The notes beneath the pieces are model-generated. The model had not been told where the DNA came from. It was given only the letters and a program-made list of their open reading frames with translations, and ran no database searches. The position numbers were made by a program, and so were the translations under genes. A stretch of 32,638 nucleotides of DNA, from positions 1-32,638 of the forward strand of contig JACPHA010000003.1 in assembly GCA_016188825.1 (NCBI GenBank). Direction: 5' to 3'. Below, in pieces: positions 1 through 25,122 of the stretch (the first letter of the stretch is position 1; every line of letters begins with the position of its first letter). Source of the stretch: Candidatus Pacearchaeota archaeon. GTDB lineage: Archaea > Nanobdellota > Nanobdellia > Pacearchaeales > GW2011-AR1.

Positions 1-1761
1 ATTATTAGCATTACAACTTACACTAGCACAATTATTTGGATTTGTGCACAAAGCAACGTTAGCAGTTGCTGTGCAAGTTCCTGCCCCATTGCATTGTTGA
101 GCAGAAGCACATTGTGCTCCACTTATTGTACAGCTTGTTCCACTTGCAGCAAAATCATAAGCACACCCTGTTATAGAATCTCCTGTTGCTCCAACACACC
201 TGTCATTTATTGTGCATGCATTATTATCATTGCATGCTGCATTGTTTAGAACGTTACAACTATCAGTTGCCTCATCGCATGTTGTTGTGCATGAATATGA
301 ATCAGCAATGCACGGATCAGCACCATCACTGCATAATCCACCAGAACAAACTTCCTGTCCATCACAGAATAATCCATTATTGCAATCAGCATTAGTATTA
401 CAAGAAACTATTTGTGGAAACTCATACGCTCCCATGTCCAAAGCGCTTCCCTGCGGTCTTGAAGTTCCATCAGTGTCCTTGAAAGGCAACGGAAGAGTAA
501 ACAACACAGCAAGGTTAGGGTCGCCTTTGTCAATGGCCGGCGATGCAGACTTCAGGCGGAAATCAAAGTTGTTGAAGAAATCATAATTGACAAACTGCGG
601 GTCTTGACCAATGATGCTGTTGGGGCCCTCACTTGGGTAAGGCGTTGCAGTGTCATCATTCGGCCCTGAAGGAGCGCTCGGCTTGGTGTAAAACAGGTTG
701 TAATTGGAGTTAACATTGGTAACAGCCGGAGCAATGTCTATGCCTGACTGGTAAAAGATATTGTTGTGAATGACCACGTTATCCATTGGAGCCCTGCCTC
801 CGCCAGCCAACAACCTGATGGCCGGGTAACCCAACCACCCAAAGGTGTTGGAATGAATGTAAAGATTCCGGACAACCGTTGGACTGCTCTGCGGTGATGC
901 CAAAAATATGCCCGGCGCTTCCCCGCCATTCTCCTGCCAGTATTTATCGTTATACAAAACGTTGCCGTAAATATATACGTTCTCAAACACGCTGCTCGGC
1001 GTACCATCGTTGGGTCCGCCGTAAATATACTGCGTAAAGTCAAAAATCCTGTTGTTCCTAATGATCAAACCATTCACTGGCTCCGTTATCTCAAAGGCAT
1101 CCGGATGACAACCACTACGAAATGAATCCCCAAGTACGTTATTCTCAATTATGATGTTCTTGCCCTGAATGTCCATGCCGTCACAGGTAATGCGCAAGAT
1201 CTTGTTGCCGCGAATGGTGACATTGGTAGCCACGCGATCGCCGCGGAGGCCGATTCCGGCCGAACCAGGAACATCATGGATATAATTGTTCTCAATTAAA
1301 GCATCATGAACATTCCGACAGTCGATGCCGTAATCATCCATATCGTGGATGTAGTTATTGACCATTTCCACACCCTTCACAACTTCTTGGTCTCGATCTT
1401 GACAGTAAAACCCCGAGCCCCCACCATTGCTTATCTCAAAACCCTCCACCCTAACAAAGCTTTTGAGATTAAAGTTTACCGTACTACTCAACTTAACCAT
1501 GCACACAGGGCGAACATTGTAATCGCTGGCCTGCACGCACTCGTCCCCGGGATAGGCCTTGAAGGTAATGAGGTTTCCAGCAGTTCCAGAATTAGCAGGA
1601 GACAATGTTCCTGTGTAGATGCCAGCACGCACGCAAACAACATTTCCTGCAGCTGCTGTCGACGCTGCTTTTCCTAATGTACACCATGGGTTTGTTTCAC
1701 TTGTTCCTGAATTGCTATCGCTACAAGCCCCTCCAATTGAATTTATATCAACATAATGAGT
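1..1761 (-). pseudogene. Frameshifted 3' half of surface protein: parallel beta-helix plus Cys-rich repeats (runs off left edge)
   Basis: An uninterrupted reading frame of about 587 codons runs from the left edge to 1761 on the minus strand, with no start codon of its own near the domain start. It begins THYVDINSIGG, then a C..NSGTS...PWCTLGKA stretch typical of the start of bacterial and archaeal right-handed beta-helix domains. Beta-helix rungs follow (IENNYIHDV, VTIRGNKI, IIENNVLGDS, LIIRNNRIF, VYIYGNVLY, VVIHNNIFY), then the usual closing SPAIDKGDP and LDMGAYEF. The C-terminal part is Cys-rich (DCNNGLFCDG, ACNDNNACTINDRC) and continues beyond the window. It is in a different frame from the LamG gene at 1743-3311, whose last residues AGALIMLI would become AGATHYVDINSIGG with one extra base near 1760. 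I infer one original secreted adhesin or carbohydrate-binding protein split by a single-base shift. The beta-helix part (about 430-1400) is visibly richer in G+C than its surroundings. Confidence 0.8.
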
Positions 1762-3311
1762 GCACCTGCTTCTTGCTGTAAAACAGTCAATACATTTGAA
1801 GTTCCCTCTGGATTTATCTTTGCTCTGAAAAATAAATCAGGATCTCCGCCAGGAAAAATACCAAGAACTTTGTCTTCTTTCCACCTTGCTGCATATGACT
1901 TTCTTGCTTTTCCATTAATCACAACCCCAGAATCCTTATCTTCCTCTTCAACACCAAAAACACCATCGGTTTCTAAAATATTATAATCAACCGCTTTTCC
2001 TTCACAATTTTCAGTCTCAACTGTCAAATAAACAGTTTCTCCGTTAAGAGCAGTATCTTTTCTGTTTCCATTCAAATCTGTCCATTCAACTCTCTTAATC
2101 TCGCATTCTTCCTGCCCGGTTAATTTCTGAATTATTCCTTCTTCTGTACAGGGTTGTGTTGTTATTGGTTTATTATTTGTTGTTCCACAATTATTTTTTT
2201 CAATACAAAATCTCTCTTGCAAACCATCAACACAACTTCCAAAGGCAGTGCATTCCCAATTTTCTCTGCATTCTTGCAATTGACAATCTCTCTGAACTTG
2301 AGGCAAATTATTTGTTGTTCCACAATTATTTATATCAATGCACTCTCTAACTTGTTTTCCGTTTATGCAAGCACTCCAAACATTACATTGCCAATTTTCT
2401 TGACAAGTTGGTTGAGTAGCGTCTTGCATTGGTGTTGTGCATGCTTGCGTTGTAACTGGTTTATTATTTATTGTTCCGCAATTATTATTATCAAGACATG
2501 TTCTTGTTTGAATATCATCAACACAGCTGTCCCAAGAAGAACATTGCCAATTTTCCGTACATGTCTGTGGCGGCTGCGTTTGAGAAGGTTGAGCATTGTA
2601 AAGCTCTAAAATTTCACTTTCACTCAATGCCCTGTTAAAAACAACTAATTCGTCAATGGCCCCATTGAAATTCCAGTTAGAAACCAATCCAATTTGAAGA
2701 TTCGTATTTGTTTTCTGTATTACTCCTTGTCTTGCTCTTGTCCCTGCTAAAACTCCATCAACGTAAATTTTTAAATTTGCTCCATCAAAAGTGAAAACAA
2801 CGTGATGCCATTGGTTTGTTGTCAGTTGGTTTGAGCTCTGAACATTATTATTACAATTCCCAGTTGTATAGCACATTTCAGCAAAAGCATAAAGATTGTT
2901 ATTAAGAGTCAATCCATAGCTAGCGTATTTATAAGCAATTGCTTGTGTTCTTCCTGTGCTTCCTTTAGGATAAACCCATGCAGAGATTGTCAATGCATTT
3001 GTTAAATCTAAACTACCAGAATCAGGAATCGTTATATATTCTGATTGAGAATCAAAACCACATCCCTGATTGAATTTTCCCTGGACATTGCAATCAACAT
3101 TTCCAATTATATTCCCTTGATTATTATTTCCAGAATTATCTAATACATTTCCATTCATGTGGGTTAATAACACCACACTAGGATCAGTTGTCAATTCTCC
3201 GCTTGGATTAAAAACAAGAAAACCCAAAATACTAAAACTTCCTAACAATACAAGTCCAATGGAAACCAAAATCACAAAAAACCAAATGTATTGAAACGCC
3301 TCTTTTTTCAT
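1743..3311 (-). CDS. Membrane-anchored LamG surface protein with three Cys-rich TSP1-like repeats (5' half of a split gene)
   Basis: 522 aa. Residues about 9-33 form one hydrophobic membrane or signal segment (IWFFVILVSIGLVLLGSFSI), with the rest expected outside the cell. Residues about 45-240 are a LamG/concanavalin A-like domain: LLTHMNGNVLDNSGNNN, a WVYPKG strand, QWHHVVFTFDGANLKIYVDG and GAIDELVVFNRALSESEI. Three repeats of pattern C.ENW.C..W..C..G.Q.R.C...NNCGT follow (about 250-390), resembling TSP1-type Cys modules. A beta-rich region (VEWTDLNGN...GETVYLTVE) ends the frame. The likely role is binding surface glycans or other cells; that is family inference. The start ATG at 3311 lies about 25 nt from a TATA-like box. 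The stop falls where homologous architecture would run into the beta-helix of 1-1761, so this C-terminus is probably artificial. Confidence 0.85.
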   Translation of the reverse strand: MKKEAFQYIWFFVILVSIGLVLLGSFSILGFLVFNPSGELTTDPSVVLLTHMNGNVLDNSGNNNQGNIIGNVDCNVQGKFNQGCGFDSQSEYITIPDSGSLDLTNALTISAWVYPKGSTGRTQAIAYKYASYGLTLNNNLYAFAEMCYTTGNCNNNVQSSNQLTTNQWHHVVFTFDGANLKIYVDGVLAGTRARQGVIQKTNTNLQIGLVSNWNFNGAIDELVVFNRALSESEILELYNAQPSQTQPPQTCTENWQCSSWDSCVDDIQTRTCLDNNNCGTINNKPVTTQACTTPMQDATQPTCQENWQCNVWSACINGKQVRECIDINNCGTTNNLPQVQRDCQLQECRENWECTAFGSCVDGLQERFCIEKNNCGTTNNKPITTQPCTEEGIIQKLTGQEECEIKRVEWTDLNGNRKDTALNGETVYLTVETENCEGKAVDYNILETDGVFGVEEEDKDSGVVINGKARKSYAARWKEDKVLGIFPGGDPDLFFRAKINPEGTSNVLTVLQQEAGALIMLI

Positions 3312-3609: not shown

Positions 3610-3715
3610 TATAGTCAACGACATTAATATTCCCCCGTTTTGTCGTTGTCTCGTCAAGATTTGTTTGTCTTTCGCAAATCTTGAGCGTTAGGGAAAGACT
3701 TTTGACTTCACTATA
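3610..3715. repeat. Multi-hairpin structured repeat, copy 1 (related to 8437-8587)
   Basis: About 106 bp bounded by TATAGT and ACTATA. Inside are two hairpins: GTCAACGACA/TGTCGTTGTC (3614-3623 and 3641-3650, one mismatch) and TCAAGATTTG/CAAATCTTGA (3654-3663 and 3675-3684, perfect). A GGGAAAGAC block and the end CACTATAA follow. The order of blocks (TATAGTCAA-GAC-TTAATA, TCAAGATTT hairpin, AGGGAAAGAC, CACTATAA) is repeated in the element just before gltX at 8437-8587, so this is a dispersed family and not chance. No gene overlaps it. Its function is unknown; it may be a TA-flanked MITE or a structured RNA. Confidence 0.65.
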
Positions 3716-3794: not shown

Positions 3795-4108
3795 GTGATT
3801 AATGCATTAACGAACCAGATTGTTTATATTTATAGACGATAAAATAGTGAAAAATATGTGCAAGCAATTAAAATGCGAACTTTAATAAAATCAATATAAA
3901 GATAGTTATCTTACATCGGGGATTTATCGAAGTTATGGACAATTGCATTGCTTATGTGACATTTATTTGCAATTGTACAGACAGAGAATTGCAAAAAACA
4001 GGAGACATATCCTATGCAATTCTCTGTATTTACTAATTATTGAAATGAGTTGAATAGTTTTATAATCTCTTTAAAGAGGCAGTTTAGTTCGGAATTGACC
4101 TAGTCACC
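3795..4108 (+). mobile_element. MITE copy A (314 bp with nested insert), 8-bp target duplication
   Basis: Non-coding element about 95% identical to the reverse complement of 24649-24962. It begins GTGATTAATGC and ends TAGTCACC, imperfect forms of the inverted ends GGTGATTAG...CTAATCACC seen in copy B. It is flanked by the direct repeat TAAAATAA (3787-3794 and 4109-4116), a perfect 8-bp target-site duplication. It carries the palindrome CTCTTTAAAGAG near its right end and no reading frame. A 90-bp double-hairpin element is nested at 3937-4026; without that insert and one TAT the element is 221 bp. An 8-bp duplication suggests cross-mobilisation by a DDE transposase from a family making 8-bp duplications (IS66, IS256 or IS1595 types do); no such gene is visible here. 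Confidence 0.85.
3937..4026 (+). mobile_element. Nested 90-bp double-hairpin mini-element, copy A
   Basis: Runs from GGACAATTGC to AATTCTCTG with TAT on each side (3934-3936, 4027-4029). Two hairpins: ACAATTGCA/TGCAATTGT (3939-3947, 3968-3976; loop 20) and ACAGAGAATTGCA/TGCAATTCTCTGT (3981-3993, 4015-4027; loop 21). Only two bases differ from the copy at 24763-24852. Copy B of the MITE has the uninterrupted sequence at this spot (CGACGTTAT directly joined to TTACTAATT), so this unit inserted here by itself. It may carry a TAT duplication, or it may have inserted 3' of TAT without duplication, as IS200/IS605-type elements do. Paired subterminal hairpins favour the latter, but this is unproven. 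Confidence 0.8.
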
Positions 4109-4239
4109 TAAAATAATTCATTAAGAAAACATGTTTATTTTTTGGATATTCTTTTACAATTCGTGTCATGATAACTTGACAGTATCAACAAACCGAAGGT
4201 TTTTTAAAGTAGAGGATTATTATAATATTAATAACTTTC

Positions 4240-7117: not shown

Positions 7118-8350
7118 TTAATTTTCATTTACAAAATATCTTGCAGTTTTTCCGACCTTAACTTTTTTTAATATTCCTGCCTTGACTAAAGGAGTTAAAA
7201 AATAAGTAACAGAATACAAATGAAATGCTTTGTAAATCTCACAAGGTCTACTTCCTGGGTTTTCAGACAAGAATTTCAATATTTTCTCGTTAGTTTCCTC
7301 TCGTGATCTCGTATTAATGTGCGGAGAGAGTTTAACATAATAATTAATTGCCATTTGAAGCTTATCTTCAAAAGTTTGATTAGTGTCCTCTCTATAGGGT
7401 TCCTGCAATTTTCCTAATGTTCCTCCATCATTTAAACAATCTTCTATAACTGAAATGTATCCGTCTAAAAATTTCCTTCCTTCATCCAATAGTTTAATCT
7501 CAGAATATTTTTTTCCTGATTGCCATTTACCCCTTTTTACTAATCCCTGTTCTATAAGACCAGAAACAACGTGAACAATATTGTGGCTACCACTTGAAGG
7601 GAAAATTTCAGAGAGCTGCTTAAGATTTAAATTGCCTTTCTTTGACAATTCTTCTGCGATATTATTTGTTAACGTAAGATAACTATGAACAGTCTCTGCT
7701 TCTTCAGGTTTTTTTCCTTCAATCCAATGATATTCAGAAATGGGGTTTCCTCTCTTTGACTCTCCAATAGAATCAAAATAAACAAATCCTACTTTCTGTA
7801 ATGGACTTAGCAAAAATCTAATGTTCTCATTGTCAATGCTGATTCTTTCTGCCAAATCTACTGCCCTTAGTGTTTTTTCTCCTAATTCCTTAAGAATTTT
7901 TACCCTAGTTAATGGGGCCCTCATTTTCCTTTGAGAACTCGTACTTCCAAGAATTTCAAACATGCTTCTCCCGGTTCTTGCAACATGCTCTATCGTAAAG
8001 AAACAAATAGGCAAGCCATATTTATTTCCAGCATCTGTTAATCTATAACCAAGATAAATAGAGCTATCACTTTCTCTTGTAACAACTTCTTCTGCAAGAA
8101 TTCCAATTGGATAAAGAGTATCGTGGCAATAAGCTCCAAAAGCTCTGCTCTGTGGCAAGTAAAAATCTTTCCCAATTGTTTCTCTTACTCTTGCCTTTAT
8201 TTCTGAACCTTCTCTCGGAACATCGTCAAGATGCAAAAGAGTCGCTGTTTTCAATTCAGTATTCACTACATTAAGTATTGCATTTAGCCTTTCTTCTAAA
8301 TCTGTTGGAAATGGTTTTTCCCTGCTTTCCAAAATCTTTAATTCGGCCAT
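7118..8350 (-). CDS. Tandem winged-helix DNA-binding protein
   Basis: 410 aa. An unrecognised N-terminal domain (about 1-140) contains RAFGAYCHDTLYPIGILAEE. Three winged helix-turn-helix-like units follow. The first is about 145-200 (RVKILKELGEKTLRAVDLAER...LLSPLQKVGFVYFD). The second is about 228-300 (IAEELSKKGNLNLKQLSEIF...VVSGLIEQGLVKRGK). The last is about 345-405 (EKILKFLSENPGSRPCEIYKAF...LVKAGILKKVKVGKTARYF). Each has the helix, turn, recognition-helix and wing pattern of archaeal regulators. It is presumably a transcription factor of unknown target. It is divergent from gltX, and the 240-bp gap between them contains the multi-hairpin element 8437-8587. Confidence 0.75.
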   Translation of the reverse strand: MAELKILESREKPFPTDLEERLNAILNVVNTELKTATLLHLDDVPREGSEIKARVRETIGKDFYLPQSRAFGAYCHDTLYPIGILAEEVVTRESDSSIYLGYRLTDAGNKYGLPICFFTIEHVARTGRSMFEILGSTSSQRKMRAPLTRVKILKELGEKTLRAVDLAERISIDNENIRFLLSPLQKVGFVYFDSIGESKRGNPISEYHWIEGKKPEEAETVHSYLTLTNNIAEELSKKGNLNLKQLSEIFPSSGSHNIVHVVSGLIEQGLVKRGKWQSGKKYSEIKLLDEGRKFLDGYISVIEDCLNDGGTLGKLQEPYREDTNQTFEDKLQMAINYYVKLSPHINTRSREETNEKILKFLSENPGSRPCEIYKAFHLYSVTYFLTPLVKAGILKKVKVGKTARYFVNEN

Positions 8351-8414
8351 AAAAATTGTTTATTTGGTTGGTTTTTAATTATTTCGAATGTGCTTCTTCT
8401 CTGATGCAAATATC

Positions 8415-8422
8415 TTTAAATA
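8415..8422 (+). promoter_or_regulatory. TATA box of gltX
   Basis: TTTAAATA with an AAATATC upstream element. A start site about 25 nt downstream falls at about 8440, the first bases of the structured repeat 8437-8587. The gltX mRNA would then have a leader of about 150 nt, made almost entirely of that repeat, unlike the leaderless genes nearby. Confidence 0.5.
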
Positions 8423-8436
8423 ATTTATTTCTCTAA

Positions 8437-8587
8437 TATAGTCAAGGACGTTAATAATTGACCAAGATTGTCATAGACTACATCAAGATTTATGTGATTT
8501 TAAATCTTGAATATGCTCAAGAACTACGTTCTTGACATTGAGGGAAAGACGCACAAAACCATTAAAAAACTTGCGTCTTTCACTATA
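8437..8587. repeat. Multi-hairpin structured repeat, copy 2; presumed gltX leader
   Basis: About 151 bp from TATAGTCAAGG to CTTTCACTATA, with ends that are inverted copies (TATAGTCAAGGACG against TATAGTGAAAGACG). Internal hairpins are TCAAGATTTA/TAAATCTTGA, TCAAGAAC-TAC-GTTCTTGA and GAAAGACGCA/TGCGTCTTTC (loop 18). It shares block order with 3610-3715. It ends 3 nt before the gltX ATG, so the ribosome entry region would be held in a stem. It could be a MITE that landed in the promoter-start gap, or a regulatory leader. An alternative TTG start at 8507 would translate through it, but the family relation to a non-coding copy argues against that. Confidence 0.65.
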
Positions 8588-8590
8588 ATC

Positions 8591-10240
8591 ATGAAACTGG
8601 AAAAAGAAATAAAAGCATATGCAATTAAAAACGCACTCGAATTCGGCAAAGCAGAGCCTTCCAAAATCCTGCCGAAATTATTCCGGCACGGCTTAGAAAA
8701 ATCTGAGATAAAGAATATTATGCCGGAAATTATTAAAACAGCTAAAGAAATTAATTCTTTATCAAAAGAAAACCTTTTGGATTTGTTTAAAGAATATGAA
8801 AAATTTGTAAAAGTGAGGGAAGAAAAAGAAAAAGACCTTCCAGAGCTGAAACTCAAAGATACAAAAAATGTTGTAACACGTCTTGCTCCAGAACCATCAA
8901 AATATCTTCATCTCGGCCACGCCATGTCATTCCTGTTAAACTATTTATATGCAAAAAAATATAATGGAAAATGTTTGTTGCGTTTCGAAGACACAAATCC
9001 AGAAAAAGTCTCGCAAGAATATGTTAATTCAACTCTCGATGATATAAAAAACTATTTAGAAATCAAAATTGATGGAATAAGATATATTTCCGATGACATG
9101 GAAATCCTTTACAACTATGCAGAAAAACTAGTCAAAATAGAAAAAGCATATATGTGTTTTTGTGACAGAGAAAAAATGCAGGACCTAAGACATAAGGGAG
9201 TTGAATGTGCCTGCCGTAAAAATTCAATAGAAAAAAATCTCGCCGAATGGAGAAACTTCTTGAAAGGAAAATACATGAAAGGCGAAGCAGTTCTAAGAAT
9301 AAAAGGAGATATGAAAAGCCAAAACCATGTAATGCGCGATTCTGTTATACTAAGAGCAATTGCAAAAAAACATTACAGACACGGAAATAAATATAAAGTC
9401 TGGCCAATGTATGATTTCTACAACCCAATCGAAGATAGTTTAATGGGAATAACTTTAATATTGCGAAGCAATGAGTTTGATTTGCGCGTTGAACTGCAGG
9501 ATTATATTAAAGATATCCTCGGATTGAAAAAACAAACAATCGTCCAATACGGCAGATTTAACGTGATTGACTTCACAACAAAAGGCAGAGAAATAAGAGA
9601 TTTAATCGCATCAAAAGAATTCCTGGGCTGGGATGACCCAAGACTCATAACCTTAAAAGCCCTAAAAAGAAGAGGAATTGTGAAAGAAACAATCTATGAA
9701 TTAACAAAACAAGTTGGCTTGTCAAAAAACCAAGTAAACCTTGAATTTGAAATGCTCGCTGCAATAAACCGTAAAATAATAGATGCAACAGCAAATCGTT
9801 ATTCTTTCGTTGCAAATCCAATGGAAATAAAAATAAAGAATGCACCAAAAATAAAACAAATTTCTATTCCTGTGCATCCTGAAAAAAAAGAAACAAGAAA
9901 CCTCAGGATTTCAAAGATGTTTATATCAGAAGAAGATTTCAAAAAATTCAAAGGAAAAGAAATAAGACTCTTGCATCTATATAATATCAAATTAGATAAA
10001 AAAGAAAATAAAGCAGAATTCATGTCATTGGAAAACAAAGACATTCAAAAAATTAACTGGGTTTCTGAGCCTGTTAAATGCAAAATTCTCATGCCTTCGG
10101 GTATTTATCTCGGGGGATTGGCAGAAAAAACAATAGAAAGATTAAAAAACAATGAAATCATACAATTTGAAAGATTTGGCTTTGCCAAACTAGATAAAAA
10201 GAGGAAAAACAACTATGAATTTTGGTTCGCGCATAAATAA
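8591..10240 (+). CDS. gltX: Glutamyl-tRNA synthetase, archaeal type
   Basis: 549 aa from ATG 8591. It charges tRNA-Glu (and, in archaea with the transamidation route, tRNA-Gln) with glutamate in the cytosol. The archaeal N-terminal helical region (KLEKEIKAYAIKNALEFG...ILPKLFRHG) precedes the class I catalytic core. The HIGH motif is HLGH within RLAPEPSKYLHLGHA. FEDTNPEK binds substrate. CFCDREK and CACR form a Cys cluster. GWDDPRLITLKALKRRGI is the family signature. The usual KMSKS-like loop (LSKSKI in many archaea) reads FTTKGREI here, keeping one Lys. The C-terminal beta-barrel anticodon-binding part is present. A frame extension to a TTG at 8507 is rejected because it runs through the hairpin repeat and adds non-homologous residues. 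Confidence 0.95.
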   Translation: MKLEKEIKAYAIKNALEFGKAEPSKILPKLFRHGLEKSEIKNIMPEIIKTAKEINSLSKENLLDLFKEYEKFVKVREEKEKDLPELKLKDTKNVVTRLAPEPSKYLHLGHAMSFLLNYLYAKKYNGKCLLRFEDTNPEKVSQEYVNSTLDDIKNYLEIKIDGIRYISDDMEILYNYAEKLVKIEKAYMCFCDREKMQDLRHKGVECACRKNSIEKNLAEWRNFLKGKYMKGEAVLRIKGDMKSQNHVMRDSVILRAIAKKHYRHGNKYKVWPMYDFYNPIEDSLMGITLILRSNEFDLRVELQDYIKDILGLKKQTIVQYGRFNVIDFTTKGREIRDLIASKEFLGWDDPRLITLKALKRRGIVKETIYELTKQVGLSKNQVNLEFEMLAAINRKIIDATANRYSFVANPMEIKIKNAPKIKQISIPVHPEKKETRNLRISKMFISEEDFKKFKGKEIRLLHLYNIKLDKKENKAEFMSLENKDIQKINWVSEPVKCKILMPSGIYLGGLAEKTIERLKNNEIIQFERFGFAKLDKKRKNNYEFWFAHK

Positions 10241-24424: not shown

Positions 24425-24648
24425 TTTGCCCCTTTTTATTATTAATATTTAAACAAAAATAGTTTATATTTCTTTTCCTTTTTTGAATTATATTGGTATA
24501 AAACAAACGGTTCAACTTAAATAAAAAATCGGTATTCTTAATCAAGACAAAATAGAGGACGATATTACAAATGTTATGGAATATTAATTATCTACTAATG
24601 TGCTCCGTCATGAATTTTTTCTATTTCTTCCAATTCGTATAAAGATTA

Positions 24649-24962
24649 GGTGATTAGGTCAATCCCGGACTAAACTGCCTCTTTAAAGAGATTATAAAAC
24701 TATTCAACCCATTTCAATAATTAGTAAATAACGTCGATAAATCCCCGATGTAAGATAACTATGGACAATTGCATTACTTATGTGACATTTATTTGCAATT
24801 GTACAGACAGAGAATTGCAAAAAACATGAGACATATCCTATGCAATTCTCTGTATCTTTATATTGATTTTATTAAAGTTCGCATTTTAATTGCTTGACAT
24901 ATTTTTCACTATTTTATCGTCTATAAATATAAAAAATCTGGTCAGTTAATGCACTAATCACC
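24649..24962 (-). mobile_element. MITE copy B (314 bp with nested insert), 8-bp target duplication
   Basis: Inverted copy of 3795-4108. Ends are GGTGATTAG and CTAATCACC, a perfect 9-bp inverted repeat. Direct repeats AAAGATTA at 24641-24648 and 24963-24970 are the 8-bp target duplication. The nested 90-bp element lies at 24763-24852, in the same plus-strand orientation as in copy A although the host element is inverted, and on the other side of the 32-bp segment containing CATCGGGGATTTATCG. The 698-bp gap 24425-25122 contains nothing else except the twin hairpin at 25031-25119. Confidence 0.88.
24763..24852 (+). mobile_element. Nested 90-bp double-hairpin mini-element, copy B
   Basis: Same length and ends as 3937-4026, two base differences (GCATTAC for GCATTGC; CATGAG for CAGGAG). 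Flanked by TAT at 24760-24762 and 24853-24855. Copy A of the MITE shows the joined empty site here (AAAGATA directly followed by GTTATC). Arms: 24765-24773 with 24794-24802, and 24807-24819 with 24841-24853. Confidence 0.8.
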
Positions 24963-25030
24963 AAAGATTATTATAATTTGAGCTGTAAAGTTAGCAACAC
25001 CTTTTTTGATTAAATATTATTCATTAATTA

Positions 25031-25119
25031 TAGGAAATAACTTTAATAATCGTAACGGTTTTGTTATTTCCTAGATAGCAAATTGCTGAAAAAATCTGAA
25101 AATTAAAGCAATTTGCTAT
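25031..25119. repeat. Twin hairpin, same architecture as the 90-bp mini-element
   Basis: Two perfect inverted repeats one base apart: TAGGAAATAAC/GTTATTTCCTA (25031-25041, 25063-25073; loop 21) and ATAGCAAATTGCT/AGCAATTTGCTAT (25075-25087, 25107-25119; loop 19). TAT lies at each outer edge (25029-25031 and 25117-25119). Total size, two-unit layout and TAT flanks equal those of the nested element, yet the stems differ in sequence. It starts 4 nt past the stop of the aIF2-gamma gene, so it would also work as a transcript end for that gene. Confidence 0.6.
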
Positions 25120-25122
25120 AAT

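Follow-up and report, generated by a model that had tools for sequence, protein, structure and literature searches.

The element that separates the glutamyl-tRNA synthetase gene gltX of a Pacearchaeota genome from its TATA box is very probably a MITE of the IS630 (Tc1/mariner) type, inserted at a TA dinucleotide between box and start codon and tolerated there through either a leader or a new box. It lies in the window, the whole 32.6-kb (32,638-nt) stretch of DNA analysed here, which is contig C11 of the source genome G000 (a 20-contig, 1.01-Mb draft of 83% completeness). The initial annotation had left two origins open, a captured mobile element or a regulatory RNA family. TA-bounded empty sites, IS630-type ends, and dispersed copies establish the former as a MITE; the latter is rejected because no complete element was found in 37 orthologous gltX loci and because insertions are TA-bounded.

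The proposed mechanism runs as follows. An IS630-type transposase, supplied in trans, would bind and cut the terminal repeats, and the element would enter at a TA with duplication of that TA, as sister copies have done. The target would have been a TA in the short gap from the TATA box to the start of gltX, a gene that looks leaderless in relatives, and insertion would have displaced the native box to -177. The basic MITE is about 93 nt; the length of 151 nt at gltX is attributed to two palindromes lodged in mid-element. Tolerance would then follow in one of two ways: the leader of about 145 nt is still translated, or a box in the last loop starts transcription near the ATG.

Position and structure of the gltX element

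The gene (8591..10240, + strand) encodes an archaeal-type glutamyl-tRNA synthetase (Pfam PF00749, PF03950, and PF20974). The element, a member of the long subfamily described below, occupies 8437..8587 on the same strand: 151 nt with both TAs, the insert itself being 149 nt. It scores 65.4 bits over 8437-8587 against R1, a covariance model built from eight copies. The initial annotation had placed a TATA box, TTTAAATA, at 8415-8422; the end of the element 3 nt before the ATG; and a final stem between GAAAGACGCA (8544-8553) and TGCGTCTTTC (8572-8581). Box, gap (8587 to 8591), and stem are all where it put them. The order of blocks that it recognised (TATAGTCAA, the TCAAGATTT hairpin, GGGAAAGAC, CACTATAA) is likewise identical in 8437-8587 and 3610-3715. 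The latter is a second family copy (+ strand, 106 nt) with one extra inner hairpin, common to C18:79614.

The element is bounded by a left terminal repeat (8437..8463, + strand) and a right terminal repeat (8561..8587, - strand), whose outermost dinucleotides (8437..8438 and 8586..8587) are the presumed TA target duplication, TA insertion being seen at the empty sites of the 3610 and C19:18046 copies. Three structures on the + strand lie further in: an extra inner hairpin, TCAAGATTTA..TAAATCTTGA (8483..8510), similar in form in all four long-subfamily copies; an embedded palindrome, TGCTCAAGAAC..GTTCTTGACAT (8514..8538), belonging to a second dispersed family with 12 exact-pattern places in this genome; and the last hairpin (8544..8581). 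Folding of the 151 nt yields -42.4 kcal/mol (z -6.15), a stability equalled by none of 200 shuffled sequences; for the 3610 copy the corresponding figures are z -2.94 and two of 200. In the gltX copy, the fold of minimum energy has 8441-8451 paired with 8526-8536 and so differs from the left hairpin of shorter copies. (Complementarity between loops suggested kissing loops or a pseudoknot. This was dropped; the complementarity arises because the loops contain the inner portion of each 27-nt terminal repeat.)

The stability of the multi-hairpin fold and the strong covariation between copies would also suit a conserved regulatory RNA, riboswitch- or attenuator-like, that controls synthetase genes. 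Such a family is nonetheless most improbable. The covariance search that the initial annotation had recommended upstream of gltX orthologues found complete elements at none of 37 loci, although R1 may miss very divergent ones; two further named loci, which repeat genomes already included, were left out of this set. The named loci with related gltX number 10: Pacearchaeota and Nanoarchaeota MAGs or assemblies, one Woesearchaeota MAG, and one other archaeon. One genome, G006, has a 23-bit R1 piece on the other strand, truncated by the end of the contig and roughly 370 nt upstream of its gltX. No Rfam 15 covariance model matched 8350-8650 at E up to 1. Moreover, none of the 24 own-genome copies examined, apart from that at gltX, lies within 10 nt of a start codon, and other copies show TA-bounded insertion.

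Translation might instead begin inside the element, at ATG 8513, which would give GluRS 26 further residues; no stop codon interrupts the frame between 8507 and gltX. This is unlikely. Where matches to orthologues include the N-terminus, their first residue falls within 1-8 of the ATG 8591 product. The upstream frame passes through the repeat hairpins, and 26 open codons in a row are not rare by chance.

A MITE family with TA borders and IS630-type ends

The family was sought in G000 by its start motif, TATAGTCAANGACNTTAATA, with up to two mismatches, and by R1, with E up to 1e-3. The motif occurs at 15 places (the reversed pattern, used as control, at none) and R1 matches 20; united, the two sets comprise 26 places, with an outer and a nested copy counted apart and one left-end fragment included. 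C3:10341 is a further family copy and also an R1 match. The 24 copies examined in detail are short, multicopy, and without a transposase gene. The sequences at the motif places share a core of 91-93 nt made of two tandem hairpins, TATAGTCAAnGACA..TGTCnTTGACTAT and GGGAAAGACGCA..TGCGTCTTTCACTATA. Lengths vary: other copies exceed the core, one is shorter (45 nt), and the size classes are 149-155, 90-96, and 73 nt. The long subfamily (149-155 nt) has four members: the window copy at 8437, C14:64546-64694, C15:35477-35631, and C14:10664-10814. All four carry two extra palindromes at the identical place.

One of these two palindromes, TGCTCAAGA..TCTTGACAT, also forms a dispersed family in its own right, with exact-pattern matches at 12 places in G000, 19 in G009, six in G006, and 14 in G029, and at none in G003, G004, or any control. 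The middles of these palindromes are variable and mostly self-complementary.

Across 56 relatives, own genome included, R1 matches 10 genomes, with 1 to 28 matches each, and it matches three of five additional genomes. One of these three, the 0.9-Mb genome G194 (L159, L162, and L164-L177), has 114 matches, many of nearly equal score, which probably reflects a recent burst. In many G194 copies, near contig ends, the last loop holds another element. A viral scan returned a single match, within a coding gene and lacking the right end, which was taken as chance.

Evidence for insertion at TA comes from empty sites. The flanks of 11 copies, joined with one TA retained, were searched against all loci in the set. 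For the 3610 copy, an empty paralogue lies in G000:C5 and reads TCACAC-TA-AATATTC, against TCACAC-TA[element]TA-AATATTC in the window; for C19:18046 there is one in C14, also with a single TA. The flanks of the gltX copy align over the junction with the gltX region of G006 at 71%, a divergence too high to fix the border; since the empty allele is available only as this diverged orthologue, TA duplication at the exact gltX site is an inference. The remaining eight copies yielded no informative empty site. One copy is nested in the loop of another (C19:24933-25146), with TA at both of its borders, and its excision leaving one TA restores the usual loop. Insertion at TA with duplication of the TA, the mark of an IS630-type MITE, is seen at two paralogous empty sites (11 copies tried) and in the nested copy. 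Among 53 gathered copies, all begin with TA and 51 end with it.

Other elements in the window have a similar build. Two belong to a double-hairpin family typified by TATGGACAATTGCA (3934..4028, z -5.8, and 24760..24854, z -5.5), and a third to a divergent family (25029..25120, z -7.6). All are TA-ended double-hairpin elements on the + strand, and with these three the 32.6-kb window holds at least five. C12:27144 and C18:10423 have common flanks, and the TATGGACAATTGCA family is present in only one of them, again at TA. Around the 3934 and 24760 elements lie long, near-identical inverted copies (3795-4111 and 24646-24961, 94-100% in several arms), which are probably a larger mobile unit. At three loci (L010, L017, and L049) a double-hairpin family, GAGGACTTTGA..TCTCTATA, adjoins the right side of the MITE and seems to share its TA (three copies). 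Direct repeats also occur at 2145-2562, inside a 522-aa LamG-domain ORF (1743-3311).

Which transposase might move the MITE? A search of 181 genomes of the family for DDE_3 (PF13358) found nine positive; G000, whose assembly is 83% complete, had no IS630-type transposase by this search. The match in G185 (locus L105) is a complete IS630 transposon: 1071 bp; two open frames, whose transposase pieces match DDE_3 (90 bits) and several HTH families; a left end, TATAGCCTAAGACATTAATTATTCCCC; and a right end, read inward, TATAGCTAAGGACGTAAGTATTTCCCC. MITE left ends are identical to its left end at 20-23 of 27 positions in all seven copies compared. Right ends agree at 17-21 of 27 in five copies and at 13 of 27 in two, the latter being 3610 and C18:79614, copies with a short last loop. 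For the gltX copy the values are 20/27 (left) and 18/27 (right). When 569 TATAG sites were scored (loci from L059 on), seven reached 18/27: two IS ends, four MITE ends, and one other. (Earlier IS630 candidates, L089-L091, carry ends of the TATAGATAACTGC type, which are less alike than those of the match from the family-wide search.) Terminal repeats are thus common to the MITE and an autonomous IS630-family element, although the IS was found in family and genus members other than G000.

Closer to home, the same-genus genome G003 contains six end pieces of this IS630 transposon, with protein 74-77% identical, at contig ends, a frequent place for repeats; the right end of the L105 element recurs in them, each carrying GGGGAAATACTTACGTCCTTAGCTATA followed by a different flank (six flanks). 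Two results weigh against the pairing: G000 gave no transposase, and G003 has no R1 match, so that within this genus MITE and IS were not found in one genome. G185, which has the complete IS630, gives one R1 match. The L105 transposon itself has no counterpart of the inner inverted copies from which the MITE hairpins form.

Given how common Y1 genes are, we also considered a REPIN- or IS200/IS605-like element, mobilised by a Y1 (HUH) transposase. Y1_Tnp genes are present in nine of the 10 element-bearing genomes searched, each element has two hairpins, and a MITE copy in G006 (L099 1324-1416) lies directly upstream of a Y1 transposase gene. The borders are nevertheless TA and the ends match IS630. 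Furthermore, the Y1 gene closest to a G000 copy (one locus read) is bordered by other hairpins, without TATAG ends, rather than by the same hairpins as in a REPIN/RAYT arrangement. A Y1 origin is therefore highly unlikely.

Effect of the insertion on gltX expression

A TATA-type box about 30 nt upstream of the start codon is the layout of leaderless genes in archaeal promoters. To place gltX in this context, 101 other ORFs of at least 110 aa from G000 were surveyed, gltX excluded. The peak of TATA-like heptamers lies at -29 to -27. When a 10-mer box was fitted, 45 of the 101 genes had one that scores 3 bits or more and starts at -34 to -26 (16 of 101 in a control zone); its start is exactly -30 in 33 of the 45 and -31 in two. 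In each of the eight same-genus gltX orthologues examined, a TATA-type box stands at -30, although in G006 a 10-mer at -21 scores slightly above it. The original box of the G000 gene, CTTTAAATAA (8414..8423, + strand), scores 8.0 bits and now stands at -177, but returns to -28 without the 149-nt insert. The MITE thus entered the short gap between box and start.

How gltX copes with the insertion is a finer balance. The chances are about even that the promoter has been replaced: a TATA-like box in the last loop, CATTAAAAAA (8560..8569, + strand, at -31 from ATG 8591), would start gltX mRNA at or beside the ATG, leaving the hairpins outside the message. This box scores 4.5-4.6 bits, close to the gene median of 4.8, and 6.98 when the upstream (BRE) side is included, a level that 0.12% of 20-mers attain. 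In a comparison made after the fact, five other copies with this loop have TTGGTAAAAAAC there and reach at most 1.39 bits in that register. The divergent neighbouring gene has a similar box, AATTAAAAAC, at -30, and the last 25 nt before the gltX ATG contain no Shine-Dalgarno-like motif. However, the loop box is one base off the commonest position, for -31 is used by two of 45 boxed genes and -30 by 33; the -30 register of the loop scores only 0.78 with the BRE side; and the native box is still intact.

That same intact and strong native box (8.0 bits) favours the other course, which is a sizeable possibility: the box still drives transcription, and the element, as a structured leader of about 145 nt, reduces or controls translation of gltX or undergoes RNase cleavage, as described for Correia elements. 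The stability of the fold (z -6.15) fits this, and there is precedent in the Correia element described between the mtrCDE promoter and its genes (PMC2649163). Yet the ATG has no SD-like motif ahead of it, and gltX orthologues look leaderless. Nor is the start codon much occluded. The initial annotation had the final stem block access to the start; the stem is real, but the case for blocking is weak. It ends 9 nt upstream of the ATG and hence does not cover the start codon, which is unpaired at 0.75-0.77 in modelled leader transcripts and at 0.92 in a leaderless one. On balance, promoter replacement is slightly more likely than a structured leader.

Paired hairpins, known relatives, and significance

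The MITE origin is clear but ordinary; less so is the behaviour of its two hairpins. Each MITE end forms its own hairpin, and among 24 divergent copies, all 90-96 nt long, two-sided changes occur in 18 of the 20 pairs. These were taken from 28 copies distinct at 85%, out of 53 gathered, with four copies of the 73-nt class left out. In the alignment, made with MAFFT and not fitted to structure, 87.5% of cells pair, and none of 500 shuffles and no slid version comes near this figure; the copies were gathered with R1, and so are biased to this fold, and the shuffles leave relatedness in place. One-side changes number 20 cells and two-side changes 89 cells, a scarcity of the former that leans weakly toward pairing at the DNA level or palindrome repair. 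Possible causes of the paired changes are selection on the hairpins, as DNA or RNA, and repair that perfects imperfect palindromes.

A bolder reading, possible but doubtful, joins the hairpins to the promoter. It posits a class of IS630-type MITE with an inverted partner for each end, whose hairpins are kept across divergent families. Maintenance of both hairpins by compensatory change would imply that DNA hairpins form as part of movement or survival. The gltX copy would, in addition, be a working promoter that restores a leaderless start through loop changes absent from the other copies compared.

Several known systems offer parallels, here drawn from the descriptions in the cited articles. 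Correia elements (CREE/NEMIS) of Neisseria have TATAG ends, a TA target, and a longer form with an inner insert; their size classes are about 154-156, 105-107, and 69-73, and they can create promoters or lie, as at mtrCDE, between a promoter and its genes (PMC2649163, PMC10969869, PMC2229807). Their terminal repeat, TATAG[CT]GGATTAAC.. or ..AAATTTAAA.., is not present at 8437-8463, where by eye only TATAG(T) is common to both. Their hosts are Neisseria, and the source paper, as far as its account goes, determines no IS630 partner; the present host is archaeal and an IS630-type partner is seen. Each half of the present MITE, unlike Correia, is its own hairpin.

RUP of Streptococcus pneumoniae (107 bp) also has a TA target, IS630-Spn1-like ends, and a proposed mobilisation in trans (PMC2229807, PMC3049150); its host is bacterial, and the likeness, judged from these descriptions, is one of kind only. 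According to one review, repeat elements other than CIR form one stem by pairing of their two ends (PMC2229807). CIR itself (Caulobacter and Brucella) resembles the MITE in size (about 110 bp), TA termini, and two stem-loop arms with a linker, but as described there it has GANTC motifs, no terminal inverted repeats, and no stated link to IS630 (PMC2229807). The closest likeness is to the IS630 transposon of L105 and G003, which has the left and right ends and TA borders and comes from the same archaeal family or genus; it differs in having a transposase in two frames and no inner inverted copies.

MITEs have been reported in several archaea (PMC10969869). A literature search combining Pacearchaeota with transposable element and inverted repeat returned no such report; Pacearchaeota and MITE co-occur in one paper. 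The present family extends Correia- and RUP-like MITE biology to the Pacearchaeota (DPANN), with a likely IS630 partner. The gltX locus is a natural test, in which an essential leaderless gene has about 150 nt of hairpins between its promoter and start codon. Finally, the covariation of the double hairpins raises the question of whether Tc1/mariner-type MITEs can need a hairpin at each end.
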